Below, piece after piece: positions 3,767-11,541 of a DNA stretch of 38,713 nucleotides. Under the pieces are notes generated by a model, which made no database searches, was not told the DNA's origin, and saw nothing but the letters and a program-made list of their open reading frames with translations. A program made the translations under genes and the position numbers. The stretch's first letter is position 1, and each line of letters begins with the position of its first letter. This DNA is from a virus: positions 1 through 38,713 of IMG/VR virus record IMGVR_UViG_3300034682_000439. One strand, given 5' to 3'.

Positions 3767-3966
3767 GCGTGCTCCTTGTATTGTTTTGGAATCGGGTTGC
3801 GGGTCAGGTACAGCTGGGTCTCGGCTTTGCAGCGCTGGAAGAACTGCAGCTCGCCGTAGCGCACCGCTTGCTCCTTCTCTCGTAGCGTCTCGGTCAGCAT
3901 CCCGCACAGCGCGCGGGCCATTTCTTCGTCTGAGGCGTACTTGCTGCGCGTTTCGTCGTAGTTCAC
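3763..3966 (-). CDS. Small hypothetical protein, 67 aa
   Basis: A 67-residue, mostly helical and charged protein starting MNYDETRSKYASDEEMARAL. The frame runs open to an ATG at 4005, but the GTG at 3966 is preferred because it gives a four-base GTGA overlap with the ninB stop, the junction style used across this operon, and avoids a 43-base overlap with ninB. It lies directly downstream of the recombination genes. No domain is recognised. Confidence 0.68.
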   Translation of the reverse strand: MNYDETRSKYASDEEMARALCGMLTETLREKEQAVRYGELQFFQRCKAETQLYLTRNPIPKQYKEHA

Positions 3967-4355
3967 GATTGGTCTCCGAAGTGGGCGCCGTTCTGGGCGC
4001 CCCATGCGTGGATGTACTCGATGAGACTGGTCATGCGCGCCACGGTCATCGAGGCCGAGCTTTCACGAATGTTCACGAATTCACCTTCAACGCCGGGGAC
4101 CATCTCAACGCCCAGGCCCGTTGCTATTGCGTGACCGCTGATCATCAGCGTCTTCCACTGGTTCGCGGTGTAGCTCCGGCCGCACAGCTTTGCTTTGCGC
4201 GCCAACTCACTGAACAGCGCATGGAGTTTCGCGTTCTGCTCCAGGCTCCGCGTCGGCTCGCTCACGGTGACGCAGTAGCCGGCCGGCGCTTGGGCTACGA
4301 ACTGCAGGGCGTTCTGGCGAGCCTGGGCGTGCGCCAAGACGAAGACGCGTTTCAC
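3963..4355 (-). CDS. ninB: NinB/Orf family recombination mediator
   Basis: A 130-residue protein of the NinB family (lambda Orf). By family knowledge, Orf binds single-stranded DNA and SSB and can replace the RecFOR recombinase-loading function. The recognisable core includes EQNAKLHALFSELARK (about residues 40-55), a YTANQWKTLMISGH segment and a C-terminal block centred on ASMTVARMTSLIEYIHAWGA. The start is the GTG at 4355, which overlaps the exonuclease stop as GTGA; a much longer frame exists upstream but is only the shadow of the exonuclease gene. Placement directly behind RecT and exonuclease genes suggests the three work together in double-strand break repair or single-strand annealing. 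In lambda this gene instead sits in the right-hand nin region. Confidence 0.88.
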   Translation of the reverse strand: MKRVFVLAHAQARQNALQFVAQAPAGYCVTVSEPTRSLEQNAKLHALFSELARKAKLCGRSYTANQWKTLMISGHAIATGLGVEMVPGVEGEFVNIRESSASMTVARMTSLIEYIHAWGAQNGAHFGDQS

Positions 4356-5005
4356 GCTGCCTCCGCGCGCAGCATCTCGACGTTCCGCTGCACCATCGCG
4401 TCGAAGCGGCAAAGCTGCTCCACCATCTCGTCGATAAAACCGTCGTCCCGCAGGATGCGCTTCACGTACAGCTCCTTGCCGACTGCCTCCAGATCGGGCA
4501 CGTACATGATGAAGTCGCACCACTTGCGGCCCGTGATCCACATGCCGCCCTGCATCTGGTGGATGTACTCGGAGACATCGCCGGTTGCCAGGATGTGCAG
4601 GATCTTCGCGCTGTCGATCGGGGCTTTCACCTCGATCAGACCGTCGTCGTCGACCAGGCCGTCGGTCGAGTAGCCGAACAGGCCATCTTCGGTCACGCAG
4701 ATGCCGGCCTCGGTGACGAAAGAGCCGGTGCGGCCTTCGTACTCGCGGCGGGCCTTGTCTTCCATCTCGTGGCCGCGCTCCAAAACCCATGCCTTCGGCG
4801 GCTCGCCGTGCGGCTTCTTGCTGACGCGCTCGATTGCAAGGTCGGCGGCATAGCGGAGAGCGGCGGCGGTTGGGTCGCCGGCCTTCCGGCCAGCCGATGC
4901 CCGGGTGGTCACGCTGATCGCCTCGGCAAAGCACGATGCCGTGATCAAGCCAGCGCGGGCGGCATGCCATTCCGGCGTGCCTTGGGCGCATGAGATGAAC
5001 ATCAT
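4352..5005 (-). CDS. YqaJ/lambda-Exo family recombination exonuclease
   Basis: A 217-residue nuclease of the YqaJ viral recombinase / lambda exonuclease type, which degrades one strand of double-stranded DNA ends 5' to 3' so that an annealase can load. Visible motifs are [17 protein letters not shown] near the N-terminus, [11 protein letters not shown] around residue 80, and the catalytic D-(E)xK signature in [19 protein letters not shown] (Asp115, Glu125, Lys127). The start ATG at 5005 overlaps the recT stop as ATGA; the longer frame upstream lies inside recT and has no phage-like composition. Partner genes are RecT upstream and NinB downstream, both coupled by four-base overlaps. Confidence 0.92.
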
Positions 5006-5931
5006 TCCGGCTGCTCCGTAACCTGGGCGTCGATCGTGCGGGCGGCCTCGTCTGCCAGGCGGGCGCGATGCGCGGCAACTGCGGCCTTGAACCGCTTGTG
5101 GCACTCCGGCTGGCCCTTGAGCGAACCGTTGTTGGCGGCCCAGAAGGCGAGGGCGTCGGCGTCAGTCGTGGTCTTCTGTGCGGCGACGATCAGCGACTCG
5201 ACATCGACCCAATCAGCGCTGCCACGAGTCGGGGCCGGCGCCGACTCGGTGATGCCTTCTGCGCCGTCCACGTTCAGGTGCTGGATCGCTTGCGACAGGC
5301 GATCAGTCTTGGGCCAGTATTTGTACGCCTGCTTGACGCACGTCTTCTTGATCATCTCGCCCGGGTCGGTCTTCCAGGGCGTCGACTTGCCGCTCTTCCA
5401 CGAAGCGGTGCGATCGCGAATCGCGTAGACAGAGTCGATGTCCATCGTGTGAGTCAGGTAGTCGCCATCGGCGGTCTTGACCACGCAGTAGACGCCGACG
5501 ATCTCGCCGCGGTTGCGCGAGAACGGGTTGAATGTGTGGGTCGGCGGCTCGTCGAAGCGGCCACGGGTGAAGCCGTCATTCGCGTAGACCAGTTCGGCCT
5601 GGGCCCACTTGATCGAGCCAGTCGCCATCGCCAGATCCATCAGGCCGATGTAGGAGATGTCCAGGCAGATCCTGCCGTCCCGCGGCACCAGGTAGGCTTG
5701 CTTCTTGGCAGGATTCAGGCTGATGCCGATCGCCGCGATGTTGGTGATCGCGTTGACGACGGACTGGCGGTTCTTCATCGCCGTGCCCAGGGCGTATTCG
5801 TTCGACTGCAGGACTTGCACAGCGAAGCCGGCCTCCCGGTCGAAATTCAGAGAGGGCTCGGCCAGGACGGACTGGAAGCCGTCGCGGGCCGCGTAGATGT
5901 CGTCGGTGATGACTGCCAGTGCGTTGCTCAT
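5002..5931 (-). CDS. recT: RecT family single-strand DNA annealing protein
   Basis: A 309-residue RecT homologue, close to the usual length of the family. RecT binds single-stranded DNA and promotes annealing and strand exchange. Characteristic segments are the block around [20 protein letters not shown] (residues about 59-78), [20 protein letters not shown], a GDYLTHTMD strand, [20 protein letters not shown] and the following WPKTDRL. AGGAG lies eight bases before the ATG at 5931. It is the first gene of a coupled recT-exo-ninB set. The C-terminal 80 residues are less conserved and acidic, possibly a partner-binding tail (inference). Confidence 0.95.
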
Positions 5932-6048
5932 TTACTGCTCCTGCTTGAAAAGTTCTGCTTCTGCCCGCTCATCCAGCTCCTGCACGGTCGCATGGAGCAT
6001 CAGGAAGGCGACTACGAATACGAGGGCTGCTCCGATGCGGCGGGTCAT
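5932..6048 (-). CDS. Single-pass membrane microprotein, 38 aa
   Basis: A 38-residue protein with one hydrophobic stretch (IGAALVFVVAFLMLHATV) after a short basic N-terminus and a charged, acidic C-terminus, which is the layout of a small inner-membrane protein. The ATG at 6048 overlaps the upstream stop as ATGA, and the frame ends immediately before recT. A longer in-frame start exists but would lie inside the upstream gene. Function unknown. Confidence 0.6.
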   Translation of the reverse strand: MTRRIGAALVFVVAFLMLHATVQELDERAEAELFKQEQ

Positions 6049-6995: not shown

Positions 6996-7163
6996 TCATT
7001 CGCGCTCAGGTCGCGCGGTTACGTTCTTCACTTCGTCCAGAAACCCGTTCAGGGCTGCTTCGTATATCGCCTTGCGCTTTGCCGTGGCCTCGTCTGGAGC
7101 TACTTGCCAACAGCCGTAGCTCGGGCCGCGCTTGTAGTCGATGGTCACGTAGTAGCGCTGCAT
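6996..7163 (-). CDS. Small hypothetical protein, 55 aa
   Basis: A 55-residue basic protein starting MQRYYVTIDYKRGPSYGCWQ. It overlaps the end of the repeat-protein gene by 19 bases and ends 16 bases before the next start. The first half looks like two beta strands, the second (ATAKRKAIYEAALNGFLDEV) like an amphipathic helix. It fills what would otherwise be a 165-base gap. No family is recognised. Confidence 0.65.
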   Translation of the reverse strand: MQRYYVTIDYKRGPSYGCWQVAPDEATAKRKAIYEAALNGFLDEVKNVTARPERE

Positions 7164-8119
7164 TCCACGAACTCACCTTCCGAGTTCAGCTGATACCAGG
7201 CCCCGGCCTTGATTCCGTTCTCGCCTACCTTGCTGGCACGAATGTGGATCAGCTCGCCGTCGTCGTTGCGGTAGACCAGAACGATTGCACTGGTCTCGCC
7301 AGCCATTGCACGGCCCTCGTAGCCGCAGGCCATTGCCACGGCATGCTCGCCCGTGCTGCTGGCCGCGCCTTGGTCGCCCGTGCTGCTGGCCGCGCCTCGG
7401 TAGCCCGTGCTGCTGGCCGCGCCTCGGTAGCCCGTGCTGCTGGCCGCGCCTCGGTAGCCCGTGCTGCTGGCCGCGCCTCGGTAGCCCGTGCTGCTGGCCG
7501 CGCCTTGGTAGCCCGTGCTGCTGGCCGCGCCTCGGTCGCCCGTGCTGCTGGCCGCGCCTTGGTAGCCCGTGCTGCTGGCCGCGCCTCGGTAGCCCGTGCT
7601 GCTGGCCGCGCCTTGGTCGCCCGTGCTGCTGGCCGCGCCTCGGTAGCCCGTGCTGCTGGCCGCGCCGTAGTCGCCCGTGCTGCTGGCCGCGCCGTAGTCG
7701 CCCGTGCTGCTGGCCGCGCCGTTCTTTTGATCCGAAAACCCGGGCGAGTCCGGGTCGGCAGGCTTGCAGCGAGAAACCGTGTATTCGATCGCTGCCTTGA
7801 TGAGTCCAGGCAGGCCGATCTCAGCCTTGACGGTCAGGGTCTTGCTTGCAACCTTGGTGTCATCGCTGTGGCGGCTCAGCTGGCCCGACTGCTCGACGAC
7901 AGCGAAACGATTGCCGGCAGGAGCGTAGTAGTTGAAGACATCGAGCGGGTACTCGCACGCATGGAAGCCCGAGCGGCAGGCCTTCACATCGCCCTCGTGA
8001 ACGAAGGTCTCGCCCACGGCGAACTGAAAGCCGCGGCACTGCCAGTTCTGATCGAATCCCTTGTACGAGGTGATGACCTCTTCGTTCGATCCCTGCTCGG
8101 TTTTGGTCGAAGCTTCCAT
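7145..8119 (-). CDS. DUF7666-like protein with 14 GAASSTG repeats
   Basis: A 324-residue protein. Residues about 1-115 carry a conserved phage domain of the DUF7666 type (YKGFDQNWQCRGFQFAVGE, VHEGDVKACRSGFHACEYP, then VVEQSGQLS). Residues 134-257 are fourteen units of GAASSTG separated by two variable residues (D/Y then Y/R/Q), a nine-residue period. The C-terminal 67 residues (ACGYEGRAMAG, then IVLVYRNDDGELIHIRASKV) recur in relatives with shorter arrays. The regular period suggests an elongated beta-solenoid-like rod. A GTG at 8128 gives a GTGA overlap with the upstream gene but has AGGAG only one base away; the ATG at 8119 has AGGAG at ten bases and is preferred. Role unknown; expressed early from PL. 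Confidence 0.85.
   Translation of the reverse strand: MEASTKTEQGSNEEVITSYKGFDQNWQCRGFQFAVGETFVHEGDVKACRSGFHACEYPLDVFNYYAPAGNRFAVVEQSGQLSRHSDDTKVASKTLTVKAEIGLPGLIKAAIEYTVSRCKPADPDSPGFSDQKNGAASSTGDYGAASSTGDYGAASSTGYRGAASSTGDQGAASSTGYRGAASSTGYQGAASSTGDRGAASSTGYQGAASSTGYRGAASSTGYRGAASSTGYRGAASSTGYRGAASSTGDQGAASSTGEHAVAMACGYEGRAMAGETSAIVLVYRNDDGELIHIRASKVGENGIKAGAWYQLNSEGEFVECSATT
7350..7720 (-). repeat. 27-bp tandem repeat, 14 copies, inside the DUF7666-like gene
   Basis: Fourteen copies of a 20-bp core (plus strand cccgtgctgctggccgcgcc) occur at exactly 27-bp spacing over 371 bp. The seven bases between cores vary in a few positions only. Because 27 is a multiple of three, copy number changes keep the frame. 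The near-perfect identity of the cores suggests recent expansion or ongoing homogenisation by slippage or recombination. Confidence 0.97.
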
Positions 8120-8124
8120 GTGCT

Positions 8125-8337
8125 TCACTCTCCTGTTAGTTGTTTGATTCGCTTGATCGCCTGCCTGTGAATCTCAGCTTCGTTCGGCTCAAACGGAAAG
8201 CTGTCAAACTCCGCTTCCCACTCAGCCCTCATTTCAGCCTCGATCTCGTCGCACGTTCTCCAGTACAGCTCTTGCGCCTGGTCCTCGGCTCGAAGCCGGC
8301 GCATGACGCGATGGTCTTCGTAGTCCCGGATGGACAT
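8125..8337 (-). CDS. Hypothetical charged protein, 70 aa
   Basis: A 70-residue, strongly charged helical protein starting MSIRDYEDHRVMRRLRAEDQ and containing an alternating Glu/Ala/Trp helix. AGGAG lies six bases before the ATG at 8337. The stop overlaps the GTG at 8128 and lies just before the likely start of the repeat-protein gene. No known domain is visible. Confidence 0.7.
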   Translation of the reverse strand: MSIRDYEDHRVMRRLRAEDQAQELYWRTCDEIEAEMRAEWEAEFDSFPFEPNEAEIHRQAIKRIKQLTGE

Positions 8338-8380: not shown

Positions 8381-8689
8381 TCATGCGACGAGTAGGGCTA
8401 GGCCCAAGCTCAGCGCATAGCTGACAGCTACAACGCCCATTTTTGTTGCGTCTTGCTCCAGCGTAGTTTTCTGATCGCTCGGCTTGTGAACCAAGAAGCA
8501 CCAGATCACCAGGCGAAGGCCAAACGCAGCTGCAAACGTGAGCTCGGGGAGGCCAAAAGCCTGAGGGATGAACAGATTCCAAATACGCATCGTCACGTAT
8601 GCGGTAAAGAAGCTCATGCCGATGCTTGCAGCGAAGAGAGCGAGCACTCCGAGCGGGCTGTTCTTGGTTTCCATGCGATCCTTGGTCAT
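8381..8689 (-). CDS. Multi-pass membrane protein, first gene of the PL operon
   Basis: A protein of up to 102 residues with about three hydrophobic segments: residues 13-35 (LGVLALFAASIGMSFFTAYV), 46-66 (LTFAAAFGLRLVIWCFLV) and 84-101 (MGVVAVSYALSLGLALLV). It is the first gene after PL, the position of N in lambda, but it does not resemble N or any antiterminator. Two starts compete: ATG at 8689 behind GAGG, and ATG at 8674 behind AAGGA with four-base spacing; the longer is shown. Function unknown; a role at the host membrane early in infection is inference. Confidence 0.72.
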   Translation of the reverse strand: MTKDRMETKNSPLGVLALFAASIGMSFFTAYVTMRIWNLFIPQAFGLPELTFAAAFGLRLVIWCFLVHKPSDQKTTLEQDATKMGVVAVSYALSLGLALLVA

Positions 8690-8737: not shown

Positions 8738-8766
8738 AGTATAGGCCAGCTATACTTCAATGTAAA
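8738..8766 (-). promoter_or_regulatory. PL-type leftward early promoter
   Basis: On the minus strand TTTACA (8766-8761) and TATACT (8743-8738) are separated by exactly 17 bases, a good sigma-70 promoter. It points into the left early operon, whose first gene starts about 50 bases downstream. Both boxes are covered by repressor-type operators, so it should be silenced in the lysogen. Confidence 0.85.
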
Positions 8767-8778
8767 GAGAAACTATAC
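8739..8778. promoter_or_regulatory. Left operator cluster (two 17-bp sites)
   Basis: Two inverted-repeat sites of the form GTATAG-N5-CTATAC: 8739-8755 is perfect, and 8762-8778 has GTAAAG in the left half (one mismatch). Start-to-start spacing is 23 bp, about two helical turns. The first covers the -10 box and the second the -35 box of PL. An additional half-site GTATAG (8780-8785) makes a perfect 13-bp palindrome with the end of the second site. The same site type occurs three times beside cI, which identifies these as the probable CI/Cro operators. Confidence 0.85.
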
Positions 8779-8833: not shown

Positions 8834-9457
8834 TTAGAGGTGTGAGTACCAGTGTTCTTCGCTGACGATAGCTATGCCGCAGCCAGTCCCGATGTATTCG
8901 AGCGCTTTCTCGATCTTCCGGCCATGAGTCGAGTGTGCCCAGTTTTCATTGCCGATGTCGCCGATCACTAGATAGTCGAGCTTCTTCGTAATGCTGCCGG
9001 CGCTCTTGCCGCCGCGGCTCTCAACCTGGCCGTGGCACCAGTCGCGAGTTCCCGCATGGAATGCGCCGGTAAAGCAGAATGATCGGCCATCGAAGGCGAT
9101 CGGCCGCGCTGGTTCGGTTAGTGGGAGCTTGGATGTGTTGCTGGCGAAGCCTTGCTGGGGCGCCGTATTGCCGCCTACGGTCTTCATCAGGAGTTCCAGC
9201 ATCTCGCCTTCCTCCTGGAGATTCATGAAGCCCTTGGCCGCCACCTCGGCAAGCCGAGGGTAAAGCGCCTTTGCCGGCCAGAGGTTCGCGGCCTGGCGGT
9301 TCGCCTCCATCCAGCGAAGCAGGAACTCAACCTCTCCATGCGTGACCATGCCGTCGGCCATCACGCCCTTCACAATCCCGATCAGCTCGTCGATCTGGCG
9401 GTCTGCGATCGCACCGTTCCTGTAGACGCTGATGAGTGGGTTTTCTGACGATCCCAT
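8834..9457 (-). CDS. BRCT-domain protein with TerB-like N-terminus (rex-position cargo)
   Basis: A 207-residue protein. Residues 122-205 form a BRCT domain like that of bacterial DNA ligase: a GRSFCFTGAF strand, GTRDWCHGQVESRGGKSAGS, then KKLDYLVIGD, and the final VSEEHW. BRCT domains bind DNA ends, nicks or phosphoproteins. Residues 10-95 are helical with ADGMVTHGEVEFLLRW, resembling TerB-like acidic helical domains (tentative). A Gln/Asn/Ser linker joins the two. An AGGGAG site precedes the ATG at 9457. It is the last gene of the cI transcript and is followed by a terminator, so it should be expressed in lysogens. A role in superinfection exclusion or another lysogen trait is inferred from position only. 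Confidence 0.82.
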   Translation of the reverse strand: MGSSENPLISVYRNGAIADRQIDELIGIVKGVMADGMVTHGEVEFLLRWMEANRQAANLWPAKALYPRLAEVAAKGFMNLQEEGEMLELLMKTVGGNTAPQQGFASNTSKLPLTEPARPIAFDGRSFCFTGAFHAGTRDWCHGQVESRGGKSAGSITKKLDYLVIGDIGNENWAHSTHGRKIEKALEYIGTGCGIAIVSEEHWYSHL

Positions 9458-9530
9458 TTGTCTCTCCCTGTTATCGGCCTATTGCCGAGTAAACAAGTAT
9501 ATTGAGAGGTCAGCAGGGAAGCATCACAGA

Positions 9531-9896
9531 TTATTGCATCGTGTTGATTAGTTCGGACTGGCAGTGCTTGCACTTGACCGCTTCACGCCGCACTGGCTCG
9601 GCGCAGTAGGGGCACTTCTTGTAAGCGCCGTGCTCTCCATTAGCCGCGGCGAGCTCCTTCGCTCCTGGGTTGAAAATCGCCAGGAGGAATGCCAAGGCAA
9701 GACAGCCGTAGGCGACGACTGCCATCCCAACCGCGATATCGGCCGATCCTGCCAAAGCCCAGAAGGCGACAAGCAGCAGAGCTGCCGTGCCGCCTACTAT
9801 TTTGAGGAAGAAAGGCCCACCCCGCCGGCCTCGCTTTTCCGCTATCAGAGAACAGATACCAGCGAGGAACAGGTAGGCGATTGTTAGGATGACCAT
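9531..9896 (-). CDS. Membrane protein with C-terminal zinc ribbon (rex-position cargo)
   Basis: A 121-residue protein with three hydrophobic segments (about residues 2-18, 30-49 and 54-75) followed by a cytosolic-type zinc ribbon: CPYCAEP at residues 95-101 and CKHCQSE at 109-115 (four cysteines in CxxC pairs). Such four-cysteine ribbons commonly bind zinc and nucleic acid or protein. It lies 17 bases downstream of cI on the same strand and upstream of the BRCT gene, with no terminator visible between them, so the three probably form one lysogenic operon. The zinc-ribbon gene could sense or anchor an intracellular partner at the membrane (inference). A membrane protein plus a DNA-binding-type protein behind cI recalls lambda RexB and RexA in layout, not in sequence. 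Confidence 0.8.
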   Translation of the reverse strand: MVILTIAYLFLAGICSLIAEKRGRRGGPFFLKIVGGTAALLLVAFWALAGSADIAVGMAVVAYGCLALAFLLAIFNPGAKELAAANGEHGAYKKCPYCAEPVRREAVKCKHCQSELINTMQ

Positions 9897-9913: not shown

Positions 9914-10648
9914 TTAGACGCGCATGCTCTCTTTACGGATAACCTTGCCAACGATGATGCACTCGTTGCCGCGACAGATCTTACGATGGTACTTCCGCTG
10001 GTCCGGGTTGTCGGACGTTAGCCACCATTCGCCAGCATCGCGGGATAGACGCTTAATCACTGCCTCGCCCTCGTAATTCACCGCGTAGACCTGACCGTCA
10101 ACTGGTCGGGTGTCGCCGGTATCAACGATCACGATGTCGTCCTCGTACAACGCCGGCTCCATGCTTTCCCCCTTCACACGGACCGCATAAAGCTGCGAGA
10201 CGTTGAGGTTGTACCGTTGCACGATCTCCACAGGGAGCCGCACGGTCTTGCCATCTACGATGTCTGGTTCAGTGCGGAATCCATGGATGCCGGCCGAGAG
10301 ACGAAGCTTCACCTTCTGCACTTGAACAAACTCCTCGCTATCCGTGTCTGCCACGGCCACCCGAGACGCCCCAGGGAGTAGGGAGATCGGGTCAACACCT
10401 TCATTGGCGCCGGTCATGGCGGCAAGAATTCCAGGAGGCAATTGCCTCCCAGTGATCTTAGCGATAGCGATGAGTTGCCGCAAGCTCGGGCTGTGTTTAC
10501 CTGTCTCCCAGTGGGAAATGTTGGCCTTAGTGTGGCCGCGTTCCGTCCCCAGCTCCAGCGCGAGCTTGGCTCCAAGGGCTGCGCCCGACAGGCCCGCTAC
10601 AACGCGGGCTTCACGTACCCAGTTAGCAATCATTGTCTGGTTGTCCAT
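9914..10648 (-). CDS. cI: CI-type repressor with S24 self-cleavage domain
   Basis: A 244-residue lysogeny repressor. The N-terminal XRE-type helix-turn-helix (residues about 8-65) includes SGAALGAKLALELG and KANISHWETGKHSPS. The C-terminal half is an S24/LexA-like peptidase: an Ala119-Gly120 candidate cleavage site in LSAGIHGF, the serine nucleophile in GESMEPAL (Ser162) and the catalytic lysine in EAVIKRL (Lys199). By family knowledge it would dimerise on operators and be inactivated by RecA-stimulated self-cleavage during SOS. There is no Shine-Dalgarno sequence before the ATG at 10648, and a promoter-like box ends only eight bases upstream, so the mRNA may be leaderless as in lambda. It is divergent from the Cro-like gene across the three-operator region. 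Confidence 0.95.
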   Translation of the reverse strand: MDNQTMIANWVREARVVAGLSGAALGAKLALELGTERGHTKANISHWETGKHSPSLRQLIAIAKITGRQLPPGILAAMTGANEGVDPISLLPGASRVAVADTDSEEFVQVQKVKLRLSAGIHGFRTEPDIVDGKTVRLPVEIVQRYNLNVSQLYAVRVKGESMEPALYEDDIVIVDTGDTRPVDGQVYAVNYEGEAVIKRLSRDAGEWWLTSDNPDQRKYHRKICRGNECIIVGKVIRKESMRV

Positions 10649-10656
10649 CAGTGGAT

Positions 10657-10679
10657 GGTATAGGAAATCTAAACAAATA
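10657..10679 (-). promoter_or_regulatory. Possible PRM-type promoter for cI
   Basis: On the minus strand TATACC ends eight bases before the cI ATG, and TAGATT, identical to the lambda PRM -10 as I recall it, lies a little upstream. No good -35 box is visible, as expected for an activator-dependent maintenance promoter. The TATACC box overlaps the operator nearest cI. The exact promoter box cannot be decided from sequence. Confidence 0.4.
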
Positions 10680-10721
10680 AGGTATAGAACTCCTTGACCA
10701 CGGTGTATAGCCGAACTATAC
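10658..10721. promoter_or_regulatory. Right operator cluster (three 17-bp sites)
   Basis: Three sites share the GTATAG-N5-CTATAC plan: 10658-10674 (right half CTAAAC), 10682-10698 (right half CTTGAC) and 10705-10721 (perfect). Start-to-start spacing is 24 and 23 bp, matching the lambda OR3-OR2-OR1 layout. The middle site overlaps the -35 and the perfect site overlaps the -10 of PR, while the first lies against the cI start. This predicts cooperative CI binding at the two PR-proximal sites and autoregulation or Cro action at the cI-proximal site. Confidence 0.88.
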
Positions 10722-10722
10722 T
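10694..10722 (+). promoter_or_regulatory. PR-type rightward early promoter
   Basis: TTGACC (10694-10699) and TATACT (10717-10722) are separated by exactly 17 bases, a near-consensus sigma-70 promoter. It drives the Cro-like gene starting 30 bases downstream and probably the replication genes behind it. Operator sites overlap both boxes. Confidence 0.9.
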
Positions 10723-10752: not shown

Positions 10753-11028
10753 ATGACTCCTGAAGAAGCCCTAGACAAAGCCGGCCTCATCGTTGGCTCC
10801 CTTCAACTTCTCGGCGAAAAACTGGGGGTGACCAAGGGAGCAGTTGGGCAGTGGAAGCTGCCAGGCCGCCGGATTCCCGCCGAGCACTGCCCAGCTATCG
10901 AGCGGCTCACTAACGGTCAGGTGCGATGCGAAGAGCTCCGCCCGGACATCGACTGGCAGACCGTCCGGCTTGGCGGCGCAAGCCGCCCCGGCGGTCGCCG
11001 ATCGACGGATAAGGGTAGCGGCAGGTAA
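10753..11028 (+). CDS. Cro-like / YdaS-family DNA-binding protein
   Basis: A 91-residue helix-turn-helix protein of the YdaS/Cro-like type: LQLLGEKLGVTKGAVGQWK (about residues 18-36) is the helix-turn-helix, followed by RRIPAEHCPAIERLTNG, a motif typical of YdaS relatives that act as Cro in phages. It is the first gene from PR, divergent from cI, and is expected to bind the same operators and shut off cI. No Shine-Dalgarno sequence is obvious before the ATG. The C-terminal 25 residues are basic and disordered. In some hosts this family is annotated as an antitoxin; the position here favours Cro. Confidence 0.85.
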   Translation: MTPEEALDKAGLIVGSLQLLGEKLGVTKGAVGQWKLPGRRIPAEHCPAIERLTNGQVRCEELRPDIDWQTVRLGGASRPGGRRSTDKGSGR

Positions 11029-11100
11029 CGAGTTCTTTTCCATGCCTGCATTCTCGTATAGCCAATCTTTCCACGCCTCATCTGATTTTTAGGTTAGCAC

Positions 11101-11541
11101 ATGAACTACAAAGACGCCTTCTACAAAACGGTCCACGACTTCCCGGGCGGCTGCGAGGCGCTGGCGGTGCGAATGGGCTATACGGCCGGCCTGCTGCGCA
11201 ATAAGGCCAATCCGAACTCGACGACCAACGTCATGACCATGGACGACGCTTCGCGCGCCATGGACATCACGGGCGATTACTCCGTCCTCCACGCCCTGGC
11301 CCGCGAACACGGCTTCGTCTGCACCAAGCTGGACCAGCCGGTCGCCTCCGATGTGGCCCTGCTGGACACGGTCACCAACATCTGGGCAAAGCTCGGCGAG
11401 CTGGGCCGCCAAGTCCACGAGGCTGTCGCTGACGGTCGTATCGACCGCACTGAAGCCAATTCTATCGAGAGCGCCGCCTTCACCGCTGTGCGCCCGATCA
11501 TGGAGCTGCTCGCTCGCGTCAATGGGATGGCACAGAAATGA
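11101..11541 (+). CDS. CII-like phage regulator, CP76 family
   Basis: A 146-residue protein matching the phage regulatory protein CII (CP76) pattern: YKTVHDFPGGCEALAVRMG, LLRNKANPNSTTNVMTMDDA and an LHALAREHGFVC segment, together a helix-turn-helix-like fold. The C-terminal half is helical (VADGRIDRTEANSIESAA) and may oligomerise. Family members are thought to influence the lysis-lysogeny choice. It follows the Cro-like gene by 72 bases and its stop overlaps the next start as ATGA. Confidence 0.83.
   Translation: MNYKDAFYKTVHDFPGGCEALAVRMGYTAGLLRNKANPNSTTNVMTMDDASRAMDITGDYSVLHALAREHGFVCTKLDQPVASDVALLDTVTNIWAKLGELGRQVHEAVADGRIDRTEANSIESAAFTAVRPIMELLARVNGMAQK

Follow-up and report, generated by a model that had tools for sequence, protein, structure and literature searches.

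What do the two genes behind the cI repressor of the virus record IMGVR_UViG_3300034682_000439 (38,713 nucleotides, the whole of which was analysed and is called the window here) contribute to a lysogen? Only a few phage genes are active in a lysogen, those in this place included, and several of the known ones there exclude other phages. The best explanation of the two genes, judged from the layout of the locus, is that they are accessory genes of the cI operon, expressed in the lysogen from the place that rexAB occupies in lambda. The second of them, encoding a BRCT protein, is the conserved element and a plausible candidate for an exclusion or defence gene. Small and often a single gene, the BRCT family would be easy to test.

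The cI gene (9914-10648, minus strand) encodes a repressor of 244 aa with helix-turn-helix and S24 peptidase domains, identified by Pfam and PHROG matches. The interval between cI and the terminator holds two intact open reading frames on the minus strand, encoding proteins of 121 aa (9531-9896) and 207 aa (8834-9457). The gap from cI to the first is 17 nt and that between the two is 73 nt, with a GGAG-type ribosome site in front of each. Both proteins have relatives elsewhere, so the reading frames are no mere chance feature. The immunity region was delimited by a pattern search for GTATAG-N5-CTATAC, which matches six times at up to two mismatches, compared with 0.2 expected. Three of these putative operators lie between cI and the cro-type gene at a spacing of ∼23 nt (10658-10674, nearest cI, with one mismatch; 10682-10698, with two; 10705-10721, perfect), two lie left of the terminator (8739-8755, perfect; 8762-8778, with one mismatch), and one weak site is at 11056. 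In the promoter scan, the OR sites overlap a rightward, PR-like promoter (TTGACC-17-TATACT, 10694-10722, plus strand), and the OL sites overlap a leftward, PL-like promoter of the left early operon (TTTACA-17-TATACT, 8766-8738, minus strand). Downstream of the former, on the plus strand, are the cro-type gene (10753-11028, Pfam YdaS and P22 Cro families) and a cII-type activator gene (11101-11541, Phage_CP76).

The block is thus flanked by OL and OR, so that its assignment to the rexAB position, proposed in the first-pass annotation, now goes beyond neighbourhood and is based on operators; the lambda coordinates agree with it. The sole terminator-like site of the block (8815-8796, minus strand) would end the cI operon, a putative assignment supported by where the site lies and by its clean stem and U-run, the fold z-score being only -1.3 and shuffled sequence yielding about as many sites in the same scan. 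No promoter-like site was found by the promoter scan between cI and this terminator, and no RNA families were found within the block. From this arrangement we infer that, in the lysogen, transcripts starting at cI extend across the two genes; their co-transcription with cI is likely, and their placement between cI and its terminator stands as first described. To the left, the first gene of the left operon past OL (8381-8689, minus strand) encodes a membrane protein of 102 aa whose match is phrog_2169, a family of moron membrane proteins, and the middle of a DUF7666 protein encoded at 7145-8128 (minus strand) consists of ∼14 near-identical, collagen-like repeats of GAASSTG type.

In lambda the same parts follow in the same order (OL, rexB, rexA, cI, OR, cro), with the pair likewise between cI and OL, and RexA-RexB combine a membrane protein with a cytosolic, DNA-associated one, the same kinds as are predicted here. 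The shared place and kinds of partner could be taken to mean that the two genes are a diverged RexA-RexB pair, a reading to which we give next to no credence: the order of the membrane and cytosolic genes is reversed, three membrane segments are predicted here compared with four, and the window proteins carry zinc-ribbon and BRCT domains instead. Single BLASTP comparisons of both proteins with Rex gave E values of 0.73 and 0.21, and no Rex family is among their Pfam or PHROG matches, in agreement with the earlier remark that no rex similarity was visible. Common descent with RexA-RexB is refuted, leaving at most an analogy.

The 121-aa protein has hydrophobic segments at residues 2-18, 33-49 and 59-75, and its C-terminal part, with two CxxC knuckles, matches Pfam Zn_ribbon_3 (28.8 bits, cut-off 27), which bears out its first description as a three-segment membrane protein with a CxxC-CxxC zinc ribbon. 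The positively charged first loop suggests an N-out/C-in topology, placing the zinc ribbon in the cytosol. Over its length it matches phrog_31852 (9.4e-19) and phrog_8436 (4.2e-14), zinc-ribbon membrane families like itself that are of unknown function in PHROG. Pfam gave no match of this protein to the superinfection-immunity family PF14373. One close relative was found (56% identity; L166:3897-6573), encoded behind an S24 repressor gene and followed by genes for a 150-aa protein and a DUF1828 protein, not by a BRCT gene; these two following genes resemble another cargo pair. Searches of 399 Burkholderiales genomes and of 393 genomes of the nearest relative's family returned further similarity that was only weak or, for most hits, confined to the ribbon. 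Many of the ribbon-only matches are proteins that we take to be MscL. By sequence reading, MscL-like proteins of several Burkholderiales (L177-L201) have a C-terminal zinc ribbon very like that of the 121-aa protein.

The 207-aa protein was called a BRCT protein at the outset, and fold matches and its relatives support the name. Its own match to Pfam BRCT (PF00533, E 0.0019) is under the curated cut-off, while PF00533 is found in 34 of 48 relatives. An AlphaFold2 model built with 68 sequences (mean pLDDT 83, pTM 0.50) has a helical domain (residues 7-94), a low-confidence linker (∼95-118) and a BRCT domain (∼120-205). In Foldseek the PDB structures that the model matched best were those of the E. 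coli LigA (4.1e-6) and human RFC1 (5.6e-5) BRCT domains, and the same two were recovered by a sequence profile search of the PDB. Profile and predicted fold together place the BRCT domain in the RFC1/LigA class. An 'ADG..xxxE' motif in the helical domain recalls TerB, a domain type of Shango SngA and Bunzi. Pfam TerB matches one of the 48 relatives (0.0086) and DUF533 two, and profile-profile comparison with TerB aligned 29 columns only, at a probability of 27%, so that the indications of a TerB identity are weak.

Four residues of the BRCT domain, T130, G131, R138 and K181, are invariant in all 68 aligned rows, forming a T-G-(x6)-R motif with a later K. In the profile alignment T130, G131 and R138 fall without gaps on the T, G and R columns of RFC1; K181, equated by spacing, presumably corresponds to what we take to be RFC1 K458, on our assumed numbering of the pocket residues. 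In the work of Kobayashi et al. of 2006 and 2010, these T, G, R and K residues of RFC1 reportedly form a 5'-phosphate pocket. According to published studies cited by two papers, the isolated RFC1 BRCT domain binds DNA with a recessed 5'-phosphate with a Kd of ∼10 nM (PMC9293009, PMC9293004). Because the pocket residues are kept and the RFC1 domain binds such DNA, the phage protein probably binds DNA ends as well, by analogy with RFC1. If it is true that it senses 5'-phosphorylated ends of phage DNA, this would be an uncommon role for a bacterial BRCT domain.

Residues 18-206 of the 207-aa protein match phrog_3989 (E 2.3e-54), a large uncharacterised family that is common in temperate phages. 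In Vibrio phage K139 the relative is orf2 (28% identity over 94%), directly behind cI in the order cI-orf2(BRCT)-glo-int, also the order in its kin, an operon under an annotated lysogenic promoter; these details come from the record annotation, which gives glo as involved in phage exclusion, and from later papers mentioning Glo. K139 orf2 differs from the window protein in its length of 301 aa and its second N-terminal helical repeat, the extra repeat being the first 100 positions of the phrog_3989 profile that are absent here, and the gene that follows it is the periplasmic glo, with int in the same operon. In the Pseudomonas phages PG1 and Marin the orders are cI, one gene, BRCT and cI-BRCT, respectively; SNW-1 also has a relative.

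In IMG/VR, 80 loci with BRCT relatives were found, and 29 of 48 clusters have a same-strand cI-like gene upstream within 1.5 kb; a stricter rule of an uninterrupted operon gave cI-BRCT in 22 of 65 groups, and among one-per-species genomes a cI-like gene is upstream in ∼6 of 80 loci, all of these cI-position figures being undercounts because the cI profile misses the K139 repressor. The BRCT gene is mobile, and cI operons have gained or lost it again and again: over a tree of 119 sequences the label for the cI position must switch at least 23 times, and at least 12 of these switches are forced by well-supported branches. A survey of the neighbours of homologues, which the first-pass annotation had proposed, placed most chromosomal BRCT copies outside the cI position, where no unrelated role is known for them. 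Fixed neighbours or conserved synteny were not found for the chromosomal copies, most of which lie beside ordinary genes. Identity to the window protein reaches 75%, in a Massilia relative (L086:5362-6624) that is encoded behind a gene for a Tae4-type T6SS amidase and not in a prophage cI operon.

This distribution bears on two other roles for the BRCT protein. It might tune lysogeny, for example by responding to DNA ends that damage has left with a change in CI stability or in prophage induction. DNA damage probably leads to cleavage of an S24-type CI, DNA-end binding would suit as a signal, and the BRCT gene is likely co-transcribed with cI; yet chromosomal copies stand without a nearby repressor and many cI operons do without a BRCT gene, and we regard such a role as very improbable. 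The main rival is a role in repair, because of LigA and glycosylase-like neighbours and the many copies among ordinary genes: the protein would help DNA repair or ligation, protecting nicks and ends in the DNA of prophage or host, with nothing to do with other phages, and would be expressed from the cI operon merely as the usual site of constitutive cargo genes. The LigA/RFC1-like BRCT domain fits such a helper, and a complete ligA stands immediately before the BRCT gene at three loci (L100, L104, L105), while at another (L089) the BRCT gene precedes a gene that reads, by sequence, as a 3-methyladenine DNA glycosylase. However, the LigA proteins at those three loci already have a BRCT domain of their own, neighbours of the LigA or glycosylase type are few, and the BRCT family is patchily distributed (in one bacterial family, 11 of 393 genomes have it) and lacks synteny, unlike a housekeeping repair gene. 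A repair role, and likewise its use of the cI operon as a site for constitutive cargo, is therefore rated as doubtful, if a serious contender.

The first-pass annotation had treated the membrane and BRCT genes as one system, which the survey of partner genes did not uphold. The 121-aa protein occurs at no other BRCT locus, its one close relative has other partners, and many BRCT copies in the cI position have no partner, membrane or other; obligate pairing was accordingly rejected. Where a partner is present it varies. At one locus (L011) a DUF6232 membrane protein is encoded between cI and BRCT; other zinc-ribbon membrane genes lie directly downstream of BRCT (L019, L055) or further downstream (L082); and downstream of cI-BRCT at L012:7172-7612, and also in L091, is a gene for a superinfection-immunity protein (PF14373) that has a SHOCT tail. 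Another companion is a soluble protein of 130-149 aa without a Pfam match. Its gene is present at 37 loci, behind cI in phages as well as on chromosomes of Pseudomonas and Sulfurospirillum, and adjoins BRCT directly at 35 of them.

It is about an even matter, then, whether the two window genes are independent cargo, sharing a transcript in a stretch behind cI that tolerates insertions and each serving the lysogen in its own way. At no second locus are the two neighbours, the relative of the membrane protein lies behind another cI with a DUF1828 gene, and BRCT often stands alone behind cI. Against independence are the zinc-ribbon membrane genes downstream of BRCT at the three loci named above and, more weakly, a hint of an excess of hydrophobic neighbours: genes beside BRCT are hydrophobic in 7 of 17 cases, compared with 31 of 227 genes of similar size (P 0.008, or 0.054 when the window itself is left out). 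Since the partner place in relatives varies or is empty, the membrane gene may equally be an independent cargo gene, and this is compatible with either an exclusion or a repair role of the BRCT protein.

Our preferred reading of the BRCT protein, held tentatively and at a little under even chances, is that of a lysogen-expressed, DNA-end-binding accessory protein that acts in exclusion or defence with exchangeable partners. It would bind 5'-phosphorylated DNA ends or nicks, candidate targets being the ends of incoming phage DNA or intermediates of replication and packaging. The helical domain might then pass a signal to a partner or block DNA processing, and thereby exclude a superinfecting phage. 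The partner here may be the membrane protein, whose zinc ribbon is predicted to face the cytosol, while in relatives the slot would be taken by Glo (K139), the 130-149 aa soluble protein (Pseudomonas phages), the DUF6232 membrane protein, a T4-Imm-like protein, or none.

The chromosomal copies offer further circumstantial links to defence. Among the immediate neighbours of 58 of them, 7 of 113 genes matched specific defence models, compared with 0 of 113 controls (Fisher P 0.014), where the numbers are low and the counting was done once examples had been seen, and the controls are 113 genes from 20 genomes of Pseudomonadales only. The matches beside BRCT are SngC, SngA, PDC-S06, a type I REase, GajB, DarG and PDC-S49, while among the control genes only generic regulators and ATPases matched; Shango genes occur at three BRCT loci (L119, L140, L146). 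The earlier proposal of a candidate exclusion system thus survives for the BRCT family, through its links to K139 glo, the PF14373 protein, Gabija, Shango, type I restriction and DarG, but not for the pair as one conserved system.

At a Pseudomonas locus (L158), the only one where Gabija was seen, with GajA (3.9e-232) and GajB (3.4e-178), the BRCT gene starts where gajB ends, and the C-terminus of GajB (3855-5969), its last ∼130 aa, is homologous to the 130-149 aa soluble protein, which elsewhere is free-standing and encoded directly upstream of BRCT in prophage cI operons and Pseudomonas chromosomes. The window shares with this locus a BRCT gene of the same family, whereas its cI operon has neither GajA nor GajB. 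A broader reading, which we consider unlikely, would have the phrog_3989 proteins sense 5'-phosphate DNA ends on behalf of a modular anti-phage system, with a constant sensor, exchanged partners and repeated capture by prophages in the rex position. As part of that same unlikely reading, the partner would be the zinc-ribbon membrane protein here, and elsewhere Glo, the Imm-like protein, the 130-149 aa soluble protein, or the Gabija helicase carrying the latter as an extra domain.

The unproven PADLOC candidate PDC-S48, an exonuclease-BRCT fusion, matches 39 of the 48 relatives, in each case with its C-terminal part. A full-length example (L202:1495-2718) consists of RNase_T-type exonuclease, TerB-like and BRCT parts. 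The window protein is similar to the C-terminal half of PDC-S48 (E 5.9e-4; 3e-8 for the best relative), covering positions 235-400 of the 411 in the profile, and lacks the N-terminal RNase_T/DEDD-type exonuclease.
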